A stretch of 64,000 nt of DNA, from NCBI GenBank assembly GCA_026014745.1, contig JAOZHS010000001.1:186001-250000 (forward strand), in the 5' to 3' direction. Source of the stretch: Candidatus Bathyarchaeota archaeon (GTDB lineage Archaea > Thermoproteota > Bathyarchaeia > Bathyarchaeales > Bathycorpusculaceae). A program made the position numbers and the translations under genes. Each line of letters opens with the position of its first letter. Positions within the stretch are counted from its first letter, which is position 1. The notes under the pieces are model-generated. The model saw nothing but the letters and a program-made list of their open reading frames with translations. It was not told the origin of the DNA and ran no database searches. This document shows positions 6,414 through 58,552 of this stretch, one piece after another.

Positions 6414-8762
6414 TTACCCTTTCACGACCGCCTTATTTTGTCTACGCTGGTCCAGTCGCTCCCACACCCGATAGATGAAGCTGCCAATCGCAAACGCAAA
6501 AGCGGGCAAGACGGGTAGCACGTACCAGTATATTTTTGTCTGCGCCACCGTGAACAGCCCCAACACCACAACCATCCAAACAACCAACAACAAATCAGCT
6601 TTAACCCGCTTAACCACCGCACTATACACGCATAAAGCCCCCGCAAACGGCAATAGAACTATCCATAGGAGGTTTTCTCTGGTAGCCAAATAATTGAAGT
6701 AAAACAGGTAATCCCCCGAGTGCCCCTCTAGTGGGGTGACTGTGCGGGAGAATACGCTGTAGACGAAGTAGCAGTCCCAGAATTCAAAAAAACGCCAATT
6801 CATGTAGAGCACGTAGGGCGCAAAAATGAGCAACGCTACACCCCAAAACAAAATAAACCGCTTCGTAAAGATGAACCGCGGGCTTTTGGTAGAGACGGCA
6901 TAGTACACTCCGGTTATGAGCGGAATCAGCAATGCTTCAATCTGTTTAGTCATCAACGCTAACCCAAAACACACCCCCGCCAAAACAGCGTAACGGTTGC
7001 TGTGGGGGTTTTCTTGGCTTTGCAGCATCAAATACACGCTGGCTAAAATGAAAAACAGCAGCGGACCATCCGTCATGGCGTGAGTCGCGAACGCAAAAAA
7101 CGTCAAAAACGAACCCAAAACCACCACCGATAACAACCCAACCGTGCCGTTGTAGAGTTTTTTACCCAAAAAATACCCGGCAACCAGCGACAAAACCCCA
7201 AACAGCAAACTCCAAATGCGCGCCGCAAAGTTCGTGACGCCAAAAACCTGATAAGACAAAGCCATCAGCCACATAAGCAACGGCGGCTTCCCCGTCCAAA
7301 TACCGAGTCCACCATCAGTCCATGGCAGCAAATAATCGCCGCTTCTAACCATATGATACGCCATCTGAGAATAGGTCTGCTCATCAGCCAACCACAACGG
7401 ACCCCACCCCAACACGACAAACCCAGCAACCACAAAAACCCCGATAGCTATGGCGCACAATAAACCACTGTGGGTGACAATCCATGGCTGGGTCTTGTCT
7501 GTGGGGGTTAGCTTTGGTGGCTTGTTTGTTATTTTCCCGTAGAGTGACCTTGTAACCAATACAACTGCTACCGTTGCAACTGCTAATGAGATTCCGTCAA
7601 AGAGCAGTGTTCCCCACGCCACGCTTGTCGGCGGTGTAATTGCGGGTGGTGTTGTTGAGTTGTAGATTGTCAGGGCGTATAGGTGGTAGTCATGGGAGCC
7701 CACAAAAAGCGTGTTATTTACAATGGCGGGCGAGGAATCCACAGCTTCACAAGTGGCGTAAGTCCATTTTATCTGTCCTGTCGAAGCGTTGAAGCAGTAT
7801 ATGTTGTAATCTTTTGAGCCCACATACAAGTAGCCGTCTGCGAGGCCAGGGGAGGAACAAACCCAATAACCTGTTGCCGTCTGCCAAAGCTTCTCGCCGT
7901 TGGTTGCGTTAAAGCAGTAAACGCAATTATCCTCTGAACCAACAAAAACGCATCCATCCATGGCGGCTGCAGAAGAAACAATTGAACCATCGGTTTGATA
8001 CTTCCAAATCTGCCTGCCCGTGGCAGCATCTAAACAAAAAAATGTTCCATCGTATGAACCGACATACACGCAGCCCCCGAATATGCAAGGTGTGTTGCCT
8101 AAACTGCCTGTGAACTGACGCCAAATCTCCCTGCCACTGGACACATTAACTGCGAAAACGTCACGGTTGCAAACAAAATAGACAACCCCCTCAAAGATAG
8201 CAGGCGACGAATTCACCCTCGCATCAGTTGGAAAACTCCAGAGCACATCGCCATTAGAAGCGTTCAAACAATAAAGACCCTGCAAACCCGAACCAACAAA
8301 GACACACCCCCCATAAACCTCAGGCGACGAAAACACTGCCCCCCCAACCGACGAAACCCACACAGGTTTGCCGCTCGAAAGGTTCATACAGTAAACGTTG
8401 CCGTCAAAACACCCCACAATGCCCGTTCCGTTAAAGATGGTTGGTGACGAATTCACCTCATGTCCAACTGGGTAACTCCAAACTAATTCTCCAGTAGACA
8501 CGTTTAGACAATAGATTTTGCAGTCTTTAGCGCCCACCAAAACCACGCCTTCAGCTACCGCGGGAGAAGACCAAACTGCACCGTTCATGCTGTGAATCCA
8601 CAACGTTTTGGCTGCGTTGCTTGAGCTGTTGGTGCCGTTTGCGCCGCTACGGTTCGTGTCATAACGAAAGGTTGTCCAGTCTTGGGCGCTTGCAGCAAAA
8701 AAAGTGCTGGATGCTAAAACAAGAACCAATAAACTAAGCAGCAACCACCCGTGTTTCCGCAT
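6414..8762 (-). CDS. PQQ-type beta-propeller fused to a GT39-like glycosyltransferase
   Basis: A 782-residue fusion. Residues 1-27 are a signal peptide ending in ASAQ. Residues about 45-370 contain eight repeats of the pattern 'SSPA..G.V..GS.D..YCLN..TG..W', enough for a complete eight-blade PQQ-like propeller, with several N-x-S/T sites, so it should be outside the cell. After one membrane helix (about 385-407) comes a multi-pass GT39/PMT_2 (ArnT-like) domain. It has ADEQTYSQMAYHM with the acidic pair expected to be catalytic, and the KPPLLMWL loop. GT39 enzymes move a sugar from a polyprenyl phosphate to protein or glycan outside the membrane. The transferase part is shorter than usual (about 375 residues). 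The propeller may bind the acceptor. Confidence 0.85.
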   Translation of the reverse strand: MRKHGWLLLSLLVLVLASSTFFAASAQDWTTFRYDTNRSGANGTNSSSNAAKTLWIHSMNGAVWSSPAVAEGVVLVGAKDCKIYCLNVSTGELVWSYPVGHEVNSSPTIFNGTGIVGCFDGNVYCMNLSSGKPVWVSSVGGAVFSSPEVYGGCVFVGSGLQGLYCLNASNGDVLWSFPTDARVNSSPAIFEGVVYFVCNRDVFAVNVSSGREIWRQFTGSLGNTPCIFGGCVYVGSYDGTFFCLDAATGRQIWKYQTDGSIVSSAAAMDGCVFVGSEDNCVYCFNATNGEKLWQTATGYWVCSSPGLADGYLYVGSKDYNIYCFNASTGQIKWTYATCEAVDSSPAIVNNTLFVGSHDYHLYALTIYNSTTPPAITPPTSVAWGTLLFDGISLAVATVAVVLVTRSLYGKITNKPPKLTPTDKTQPWIVTHSGLLCAIAIGVFVVAGFVVLGWGPLWLADEQTYSQMAYHMVRSGDYLLPWTDGGLGIWTGKPPLLMWLMALSYQVFGVTNFAARIWSLLFGVLSLVAGYFLGKKLYNGTVGLLSVVVLGSFLTFFAFATHAMTDGPLLFFILASVYLMLQSQENPHSNRYAVLAGVCFGLALMTKQIEALLIPLITGVYYAVSTKSPRFIFTKRFILFWGVALLIFAPYVLYMNWRFFEFWDCYFVYSVFSRTVTPLEGHSGDYLFYFNYLATRENLLWIVLLPFAGALCVYSAVVKRVKADLLLVVWMVVVLGLFTVAQTKIYWYVLPVLPAFAFAIGSFIYRVWERLDQRRQNKAVVKG

Positions 8763-8821: not shown

Positions 8822-9436
8822 CTATAGCACTTTTACAAGGGTTTCCATGTTGAAGAGCGTGTTCGCACAGCCGTTCTTAATCAGCGGTATGCCTTGACCA
8901 GCGACATCCATGCTGTTAAGCAAATGCCCCATCAATTTCATTTCTTCACCGCACGCAACCCCCACTATGCCCTCATAGTGTGTAGATTTTAGAATCTTGG
9001 GTATGCAGGAGCCGCCCGGTAGAACAAAAACGTCATAGCCTTTACTTTGAGCGTAGACTTCTGCCTTATTCACTAAGCAGTCCTCTGAGCAGTGTCCACA
9101 GACATAGGAGGGGATGTCTGAGTTGAAGTTTGCTTTGCATCGGCTATCCATGTATTTACGGGAACAATGCGGCAGAAAAAGCGCCCGTTTTTTGGTTGCC
9201 GCGAATTTTCCTCTCTCGATTATGTTTACAGCCTGCAAATCAATAAGGTCCTCAAGTAGTACCATGGCATCCGCGAGGTTGAGTCCTGTGGCTTCTTGGA
9301 TGCGGAACTTTATGATTAAGTCATTTGCGTGTTTGAGGAAAGTTTTATGCATGCCCTTTTGGTAGCTAAGCAGTGTGAGTTCAGTGAAGAAGAACCGTGG
9401 GACCTTGGAAAGGTCGAACGTGAACTTATAGGGCAT
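8822..9436 (-). CDS. DUF116 family cysteine-rich protein
   Basis: A 204-residue soluble protein of the DUF116 family, found mainly in archaea and anaerobic bacteria and of unknown function. The family pattern is visible: LFLPHCSR near residue 88, CGHCSEDCLVNKA (about 113-125), VLPGGSCIPKI, GVACGEEM, and GIPLIKNGCANT near the C-terminus. The many cysteines suggest metal or an Fe-S cluster. It follows the 88-residue coiled-coil gene by 65 bases on the same strand and may be the last gene of the gar1-tfb transcript. Confidence 0.8.
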   Translation of the reverse strand: MPYKFTFDLSKVPRFFFTELTLLSYQKGMHKTFLKHANDLIIKFRIQEATGLNLADAMVLLEDLIDLQAVNIIERGKFAATKKRALFLPHCSRKYMDSRCKANFNSDIPSYVCGHCSEDCLVNKAEVYAQSKGYDVFVLPGGSCIPKILKSTHYEGIVGVACGEEMKLMGHLLNSMDVAGQGIPLIKNGCANTLFNMETLVKVL

Positions 9437-57190: not shown

Positions 57191-58552
57191 TTGTTGGGTG
57201 ACGGGTTGGAACGGCAAAGTCTAGGGGCGCTGCTACAGAGGCATTACCAGTTAATCATCATATTAACCGCAGCCCTCCTCATCACCGTCTCAATGGGTGG
57301 CTACACAAATTGGGACAGCCAACTTGAATTTGAAGCCGCCCAAAACATCCTAAACCACGGCTTCCCAACCGTAACCACAGGGCTCATCATCAATCAGCCG
57401 CCGCTGGGCTTCTACCTCGACGCACCCCTCTTTCTGGCGTTCGGAGCAGACTACAATGTGGGCGTGTGGATTTCCGCCGCGTTTGGAGTCGCCGCCGTCG
57501 CACTCGTCTATGTCCTGGGCAACCTGCTATATGGGAAACGTACAGGGTTGGTGGCAGCGGGGCTTTTTGCGGTTTTGCCATGGCATGCCTACATCTCAAA
57601 GATTTTCCTAATCGACAACCAATGCCTCTTCTTTAGCCTCCTCTTCTTAGCCGTAGCCATCATAGCAATACGGCAGAATTCTGATCGGAAACTGCTGGCA
57701 GCGGGGATGCTTTTTGGGGTGGCGTTTTTGATTAAGCTCTTTGCCGTGTTTATGCTGGTTCCGTTGCTGCTGATTGTGTTCTTCCAACGTGCCACCTTCA
57801 AAGTGACCCTGCGAAGGGTTCTGATGTTTTTGGCGCCCACAGCCATTTTGCAAGCCGTTTGGTTTGGGGGATTTGCTAACCAACATTTTTGGGGAGTCTA
57901 CTTCACAAGCGACTTCACCCACCCCGTGCTCATCGCTGACCCTAACCCGCTGTTTCTACCCCGACTGCTCATAGAAGGCGGCGGCTGGTACCTGTTTTTA
58001 GCGGCGCTACTGGCTCTATCAGTTACGGTGCTGTTTGGGCGTGCTCTTAGAGGACGTCGATGGCCCGACGCCGTCTGCCTCGGCACCATCGCAACCATCA
58101 TGGGGTTGGATTTGCTGTTGGTGTTTGGGTTTCATCTGCTGGTGCCCTACGTGAGCGCCTTCAAATACAACTACTTCACCATTCCCTTCTTCTGCCTCCT
58201 CGCGGCATCCATAGCCGACAAAGGCAGCCTAATGCTTGAAACTGCAGAACCTCGGTTGCGGCAGAAGACTTTGGGGCTCTTGACTGTCGGGGCAGGACTG
58301 AGCTTGGTTTTAGCTTCGCTTGTTTGGAGCATTCAGCTTCTTATGGCGTGGAGCGGCTTTATCGCGTTTGAAGTAGATTCCAACGCTCACTATTTCCCCC
58401 TCGATGTCTACTCGGCTCCTTTGGACATGGGCTTTTTTGGGGTAGCCCACAACGTTGCCTTTGTGTTGTTGGTGTTTGGTTTGGCGTGGCCGCTGCTGGT
58501 GTGGGTGTTAAAGAAGCCTATTGGCTGGTTAGTTATGGTGCTTCAAAGCTAA
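57191..58552 (+). CDS. GT39/ArnT-like glycosyltransferase
   Basis: Multi-pass membrane enzyme of about 453 residues of the PMT_2/GT39 superfamily, which transfers a sugar from a polyprenyl phosphate outside the membrane. The first extracellular loop has TNWDSQLEFEAAQNILNHG: the Asp expected for catalysis is kept, but the next acidic residue of the DE pair is Ser. The INQPPLGFYLDAPLF loop is typical. About 11 hydrophobic segments. Start TTG 57191 is uncertain; TTG 57194 or 57206 may be used. It converges on the MFS gene by four bases. Confidence 0.85.
   Translation: MLGDGLERQSLGALLQRHYQLIIILTAALLITVSMGGYTNWDSQLEFEAAQNILNHGFPTVTTGLIINQPPLGFYLDAPLFLAFGADYNVGVWISAAFGVAAVALVYVLGNLLYGKRTGLVAAGLFAVLPWHAYISKIFLIDNQCLFFSLLFLAVAIIAIRQNSDRKLLAAGMLFGVAFLIKLFAVFMLVPLLLIVFFQRATFKVTLRRVLMFLAPTAILQAVWFGGFANQHFWGVYFTSDFTHPVLIADPNPLFLPRLLIEGGGWYLFLAALLALSVTVLFGRALRGRRWPDAVCLGTIATIMGLDLLLVFGFHLLVPYVSAFKYNYFTIPFFCLLAASIADKGSLMLETAEPRLRQKTLGLLTVGAGLSLVLASLVWSIQLLMAWSGFIAFEVDSNAHYFPLDVYSAPLDMGFFGVAHNVAFVLLVFGLAWPLLVWVLKKPIGWLVMVLQS

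Follow-up and report, generated by a model that had tools for sequence, protein, structure and literature searches.

We identified a single intact archaeal gene that carries an eight-bladed β-propeller and a GT-C glycosyltransferase module in the same chain. The gene occupies positions 6414 to 8762 on the reverse strand of the window, the whole stretch of 64,000 nucleotides of Candidatus Bathyarchaeota DNA that was analyzed. Its architecture, fold, conservation, and recurrence make it fairly probable that the product is a polyprenyl-phosphate-sugar-dependent glycosyltransferase acting on the outer face of the cytoplasmic membrane, with the propeller as a platform for an acceptor or partner. 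The original prediction knew of no named family with this layout; consistent with that, no account of a propeller-GT39 protein turned up in a limited literature library, and no NCBIfam model with the layout scored above its cut-off.

A propeller and a GT39 module in one polypeptide

The open reading frame begins with ATG, has no internal stops, and encodes a fusion protein of 782 amino acids (stop codon at 6414 to 6416) that aligns with 24 relatives. A signal sequence or N-terminal signal anchor is predicted at residues 1 to 27 (positions 8682 to 8762; this and all further features of the gene are on the reverse strand), with hydrophobic residues at 7 to 25 and a modeled helix at 5 to 14. Pfam, AlphaFold, and Foldseek assign residues 30 to 370 (7653 to 8675) to an eight-bladed PQQ-like propeller of the BamB/Cake8-like kind. 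Hydrophobicity and the model place a linking transmembrane (TM) helix at residues 383 to 412 (7527 to 7616), the same as in stand-alone propeller-TM proteins. Residues 427 to 782 (6417 to 7484) form a GT-C catalytic membrane module (GT39/PMT_2, ArnT-like) by Pfam, by a phmmer match to ArnT in the PDB, and by Foldseek.

The domain search suggested by the original prediction (PF13360 or PF13570 plus PF13231) gave scores above the curated cut-offs throughout. Over the propeller, at about residues 50 to 370, PF13570 scored 212 bits (E value of 2.6e-62; cut-off, 133) and PF13360 scored 176 bits (9e-52; cut-off, 27.6), while the BamB equivalog model TIGR03300 stayed below its cut-off for this propeller (160 versus 285 bits). 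Within the GT module, PF13231 (PMT_2) matched residues 492 to 652 (2e-22; 80.6 bits versus a cut-off of 26.1) and PF02366 matched residues 463 to 664 (1e-14; 54.8 versus 22.7 bits). The NCBIfam ArnT equivalog (PRK13279) aligned with residues 438 to 773 (1e-28) but, at 100 bits, fell far short of its cut-off of 567, so the enzyme is classed as of the GT39/PMT_2 kind, not as ArnT itself. A second, stand-alone GT39/PMT_2 protein is encoded in the window at 57191 to 58552 on the forward strand (453 amino acids; Pfam, 58 bits) and is only distantly related to the fused GT.

Predicted structure and topology

An AlphaFold model of the full protein, built with 25 aligned relatives as input, had a pLDDT of 82.7 and a pTM of 0.81. 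It contains eight blades, a single TM helix at 383 to 412, and a polytopic helical domain that continues to the C terminus; pLDDT was low at residues 667 to 683, and the GT module modeled alone reached 88. Each blade has one conserved W (positions 55, 95, 135, 175, 214, 253, 293, and 333). The four-stranded repeat extends across residues 50 to 367, with the N-terminal strand at 50 to 58 completing the last blade and closing the propeller. In Foldseek, the propeller matched Cake8, a designed protein with eight blades (root mean square deviation of 1.2 Å; target TM score of 0.94), with BamB as the closest natural fold. The Pfam scores and the eight-bladed fold place the domain in the PQQ-like propeller superfamily (PF13360/PF13570). 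The limits of about residues 45 to 370 originally given for eight complete repeats were correct, judged by the W positions, the repeat model, and the Cake8 match, and the continuation into a GT39/ArnT-like enzyme was borne out by Pfam, AlphaFold, and Foldseek; the linking helix, which had not been mentioned, is an addition.

The Pfam and NCBIfam names of the repeats would favor a propeller that binds PQQ or another redox cofactor; cofactor binding, without a named cofactor, was also one of the two roles first suggested for it. By fold, however, the propeller is nearest to BamB and to designed propellers, and identity as a PQQ-dependent dehydrogenase was rejected, as TIGR03075 (69 versus 480 bits) and TIGR03074 (17 versus 833 bits) both fell far short of their cut-offs. 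The vicinal cysteine pair of PQQ dehydrogenases is absent as well, with no CC anywhere in the fusion protein. A quinoprotein is therefore highly improbable and effectively excluded. What stands of the original interpretation is a GT39/ArnT-like enzyme with an outward propeller, recurrent in archaeal genomes; the cofactor-binding role is not supported.

A parity argument on the predicted TM helices addresses sidedness. Following the N-terminal signal, the helix at 383 to 412 would bring the polypeptide back to the cytoplasmic side, from which the first GT helix would lead it out again, so that the propeller and the DE-bearing first GT loop should share the outer side. The count adds up and agrees with the original placement of propeller and catalytic site outside.

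The active site is ArnT-like

In a phmmer search of the PDB, ArnT was the sole match to the GT module (E value of 6e-15), spanning nearly the whole GT core. The best Foldseek match was likewise ArnT (5f15; TM score of 0.79), followed by archaeal AglB and the catalytic subunits of eukaryotic OST. Together with an invariant acidic pair, D460/E461, in the first outer loop, this identifies the module as a GT-C enzyme.

We compared residues across 25 aligned sequences, with ArnT numbers counted from the aligned PDB chain, which has three extra residues. The motif DEQTY at residues 460 to 464 (7371 to 7385), singled out as ADEQTY at the catalytic loop in the original prediction, aligns with ArnT D55/E56 and holds the predicted catalytic pair; D460, E461, Y464, and Q466 are invariant among the relatives. 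K492 of GKPP (7287 to 7289), present in 25 of 25 sequences, aligns with K85, the carrier-phosphate contact. D565 of MTD (7068 to 7070) lies in the region of the acceptor contact D158, where aligning the single sequence leaves a shift of one residue, and K606 of MTK (6945 to 6947) aligns with K203. A flexible outer loop at residues 673 to 681 (6720 to 6746), low in pLDDT, contains R673 at the position of ArnT R270 as well as E679 and H681, all three invariant. In QTKIYWY at 741 to 747 (6522 to 6542), Q741, T742, and K743 are invariant, and Y747 takes the position of ArnT Y345. In ArnT, D55 is critical for catalysis, K85 contacts the phosphate, and D158 contacts the acceptor and forms a salt bridge with K203 (PMC7801869). 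D460/E461, K492, D565, K606, R673, and Y747 are thus invariant in the 25 sequences, the only exception being a gap at Y747 in a sequence that its contig truncates.

The likeness to ArnT (5ezm/5f15; PMT_2/GT-C) covers the GT-C core and the DE, KPP, MTD, MTK, R, and Y positions. The fusion differs in its N-terminal propeller and extra TM helix, in being archaeal, where there is no lipid A, and in the absence of a C-terminal periplasmic domain, since the modeled chain ends with its last helix at 745 to 781. The ArnT zinc ligands, which we take to be E84 and H265, are not kept: G491 is mostly Gly or Ala among the relatives, and the other position aligns with Y. This loss counts against our preferred reading.

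The fusion recurs across Bathyarchaeia

The original prediction had called for a search for the same fusion in other archaea. Among 257 Bathyarchaeia genomes, 23 gave a strong match; 22 of these hold 27 full-length or nearly full-length fusions, the window copy included, and in the remaining one (G024) the fusion is cut by a contig end. The fusions occur in two families, and the others are 46 to 60% identical to the window copy. Lineage-specific duplications have occurred, with tandem duplicates in G031 (two) and G019. One G019 copy (L118, G019:C58:40453-42748) is interrupted by stops or a frameshift, with an intact copy after it in tandem; either a duplicate is decaying there or the assembly is wrong. 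Full-length fusions were confined to Bathyarchaeia in a sample of 398 Thermoproteota genomes, and a contig scan returned a single one, on a Bathyarchaeota contig (G028). In a plasmid collection, 240 records matched, none covering 80% of the query.

GT domains of the fused clade are fused everywhere except in one genome, G073, where a GT of 375 amino acids stands alone beside a 748-amino-acid membrane protein and a GT2 gene. This close relative might argue that adjacent genes were joined by an error in base calling or assembly. However, the 7.2-kb contig of the G073 GT encodes no propeller, and the full-length fusions come from many assemblies at the identities given above. Since it recurs in many genomes, the fusion cannot be put down to a sequencing error or to read-through by chance; an artifact, the least probable of the readings weighed here, is effectively excluded, and with it the original concern that relatives encode separate genes fused here by miscalled bases. 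The 748-amino-acid multi-pass protein of G073 (L115:2679-4922, forward strand), directly upstream of the unfused GT39 and GT2 genes, has no Pfam match and looks like another GT-C-type enzyme.

In a tree of GT domains, built without two disturbing long branches and one more long row, the fused sequences grouped together (88/90) and G073 branched as the sister of that group, a topology that is consistent with one fusion event or with loss in G073. Stand-alone proteins of the same lineage consist of a signal sequence, an eight-bladed propeller, and a TM helix at the same place as in the fusion; unlike the fusion, they end after a short basic tail. The fusion looks like such a protein attached to a GT that, at its N terminus, matches the one in G073. 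The unfused GT39 paralogs of Bathyarchaeia share the GT-C core, often in the same genomes, but form a separate clade and lack the propeller. They are about 530 to 590 amino acids long, with roughly 170 to 190 residues beyond the GT core that comprise one further TM helix and a soluble part, whereas fused proteins end with the core and lack this extension. Because of this difference, we infer that the propeller stands in for the C-terminal outer domain of the unfused paralogs.

Two further arrangements were seen. In G031 (C1), an open frame of 1,011 amino acids (L186:1690-4722, forward strand) contains two GT39 domains in tandem; it encodes a double enzyme, or else a frameshift has joined two genes. 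Similar propellers also occur in another Thermoproteota family, where their fusion partner is a multi-pass membrane domain of a different kind (L125:4189-6171 and L126:1807-4080, both forward strand); propeller-membrane-protein fusions are therefore not unique to GT39.

Conservation and gene neighborhood

Conservation is lowest (0.45) in the linker that leads to the GT module. Blades 6 and 7 are more conserved than the rest of the propeller (0.75 versus 0.65), and unfused control propellers have no equal peak; the difference is modest, and blade-by-blade conservation was set aside as a sign of a binding face. It would also fit a protein-contact face. The propeller might dock the enzyme to an envelope component (S-layer, Sec translocon, AglB, or another enzyme) without touching the acceptor, as the variable linker and the fold would allow: its closest natural match, BamB, acts as a scaffold in the BAM complex. 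The likeness to BamB is at the level of fold, though, and has little bearing on function, the BamB models score under their cut-offs, and no conserved neighbor gene offers a candidate partner. We consider such docking possible but rather unlikely.

Around the fusions we found no conserved neighbor gene; neighborhoods are variable and name no pathway, a second point against our preferred reading. In the window, a DUF116 protein is encoded on the same strand at 8822 to 9436, 59 bases upstream of the fusion gene, and is possibly cotranscribed with it. DUF116 was rejected as a partner, being local to the window and not kept beside other fusions. The GT2 class includes carrier-phosphate-sugar synthases, and the GT2 cluster that includes the G073 neighbor lies near fusions at two loci only (L103 and L107), a proximity that is suggestive only. 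The genome that contains the window has 33 GT2-family matches, a point in favor of our reading.

A ring of sequons in the propeller

Fused propellers have a conserved ring of N-x-S/T sequons in their C-D loops, a feature that is new here and is read from the alignments. The position lies eight residues ahead of each blade's conserved W and reads N-A-S/T. In the window copy (7782 to 8504), the sites are N87VS, N127LS, N167AS, N206VS, N285AT, and N325AS, with DAA at residue 245. At 87, 167, 206, 245, and 285, no fewer than 22 of the 25 sequences have a sequon; sequons are less frequent at 127 and 325. Fused propellers average 9.0 sequons versus 4.2 expected by composition, and 15 unfused propellers average 6.3 versus 4.4; sequons make up 70% of the C-D motifs of fused propellers versus 34% in other propellers, and the ring is much weaker in the stand-alone propeller-TM proteins. 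Across C-D motifs N accompanies S/T and D does not (odds ratio of 122 versus 2), and N and S/T covary within single positions (128 pairs, versus a mean of 113.6 and a maximum of 120 in 5,000 shuffles), although the fused sequences are one clade, so that common ancestry weakens these statistics and the shuffles overstate significance.

Because the chain leaves the modeled propeller from the last C strand (360 to 367), on the C-D-loop side and toward the TM helix at 383, the ring would face the membrane and the GT module. The propeller may itself carry N-glycans at these predicted sites and possibly serve as an acceptor in cis: AglB would glycosylate the C-D-loop sequons, and the fused GT-C enzyme would extend or cap those glycans or neighboring S-layer glycans. 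The frequency and covariation of the sequons, the exit of the chain on the sequon face, and a single STT3/AglB gene in the genome would suit such a propeller; against it stand the single-clade origin of the statistics, the sequon richness of some unfused propellers, and the chance that predicted sequons serve only folding or stability. We regard a cis acceptor as unlikely, somewhat more so than docking.

Most blades have a cysteine in their C strand (C85, C125, C165, C283, and C323). Disulfides were considered for these cysteines and rejected; they are more likely small buried residues, since the cross-strand neighbor is far less conserved (C271 in 14 of 25 relatives versus C283 in 24 of 25).

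Discussion

In the model that we favor, a GT-C-fold enzyme of the GT39/ArnT type would sit in the cytoplasmic membrane, draw its sugar, as the ArnT likeness suggests, from a carrier of the polyprenyl (dolichyl) phosphate type, and pass it to a surface acceptor on the outer face. The propeller, tethered by its own TM helix, would, next to the active site, hold or present either a partner or the acceptor, itself a glycan or a glycoprotein, and would take the place of the extracellular domain that the unfused paralogs have at their C terminus. Acceptor binding by the propeller is plausible, and there are precedents: in GT136 and Emb/Aft enzymes, the acceptor glycan is bound by accessory extracytoplasmic domains (PMC11127046). 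A further parallel is the TMTC proteins, GT-C enzymes with a TPR accessory domain (PMC7801869). Like the fusion, human TMTC1 to TMTC4 and the GT136/Emb/Aft enzymes combine a GT-C core with an extracytoplasmic accessory domain; unlike it, they have no propeller, and their TPR domains or CBMs lie elsewhere in the chain. BamB and Cake8 share the eight-bladed PQQ-like fold but are not joined to an enzyme, and BamB is a bacterial outer-membrane assembly lipoprotein.

The propeller could instead be a mere anchor or assembly aid, and the G073 GT domain, which exists without one, counts against a platform. The docking and cis-acceptor models stay open; our estimates for them and for the platform overlap in part, as the GT-C enzyme is common to the three and only the role given to the propeller changes.

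Bathyarchaeia are abundant and largely uncultured, and to our knowledge their surface glycosylation has been little studied. The sequon ring predicts that the enzyme is itself densely N-glycosylated. Were the propeller an acceptor in cis, the protein would be a self-contained glycan-building unit, one polypeptide that serves as the scaffold for the acceptor and also as the transferase. A GT-C enzyme whose outer domain is covalently built in would offer a ready target for questions of acceptor choice, because the propeller could be removed or swapped.
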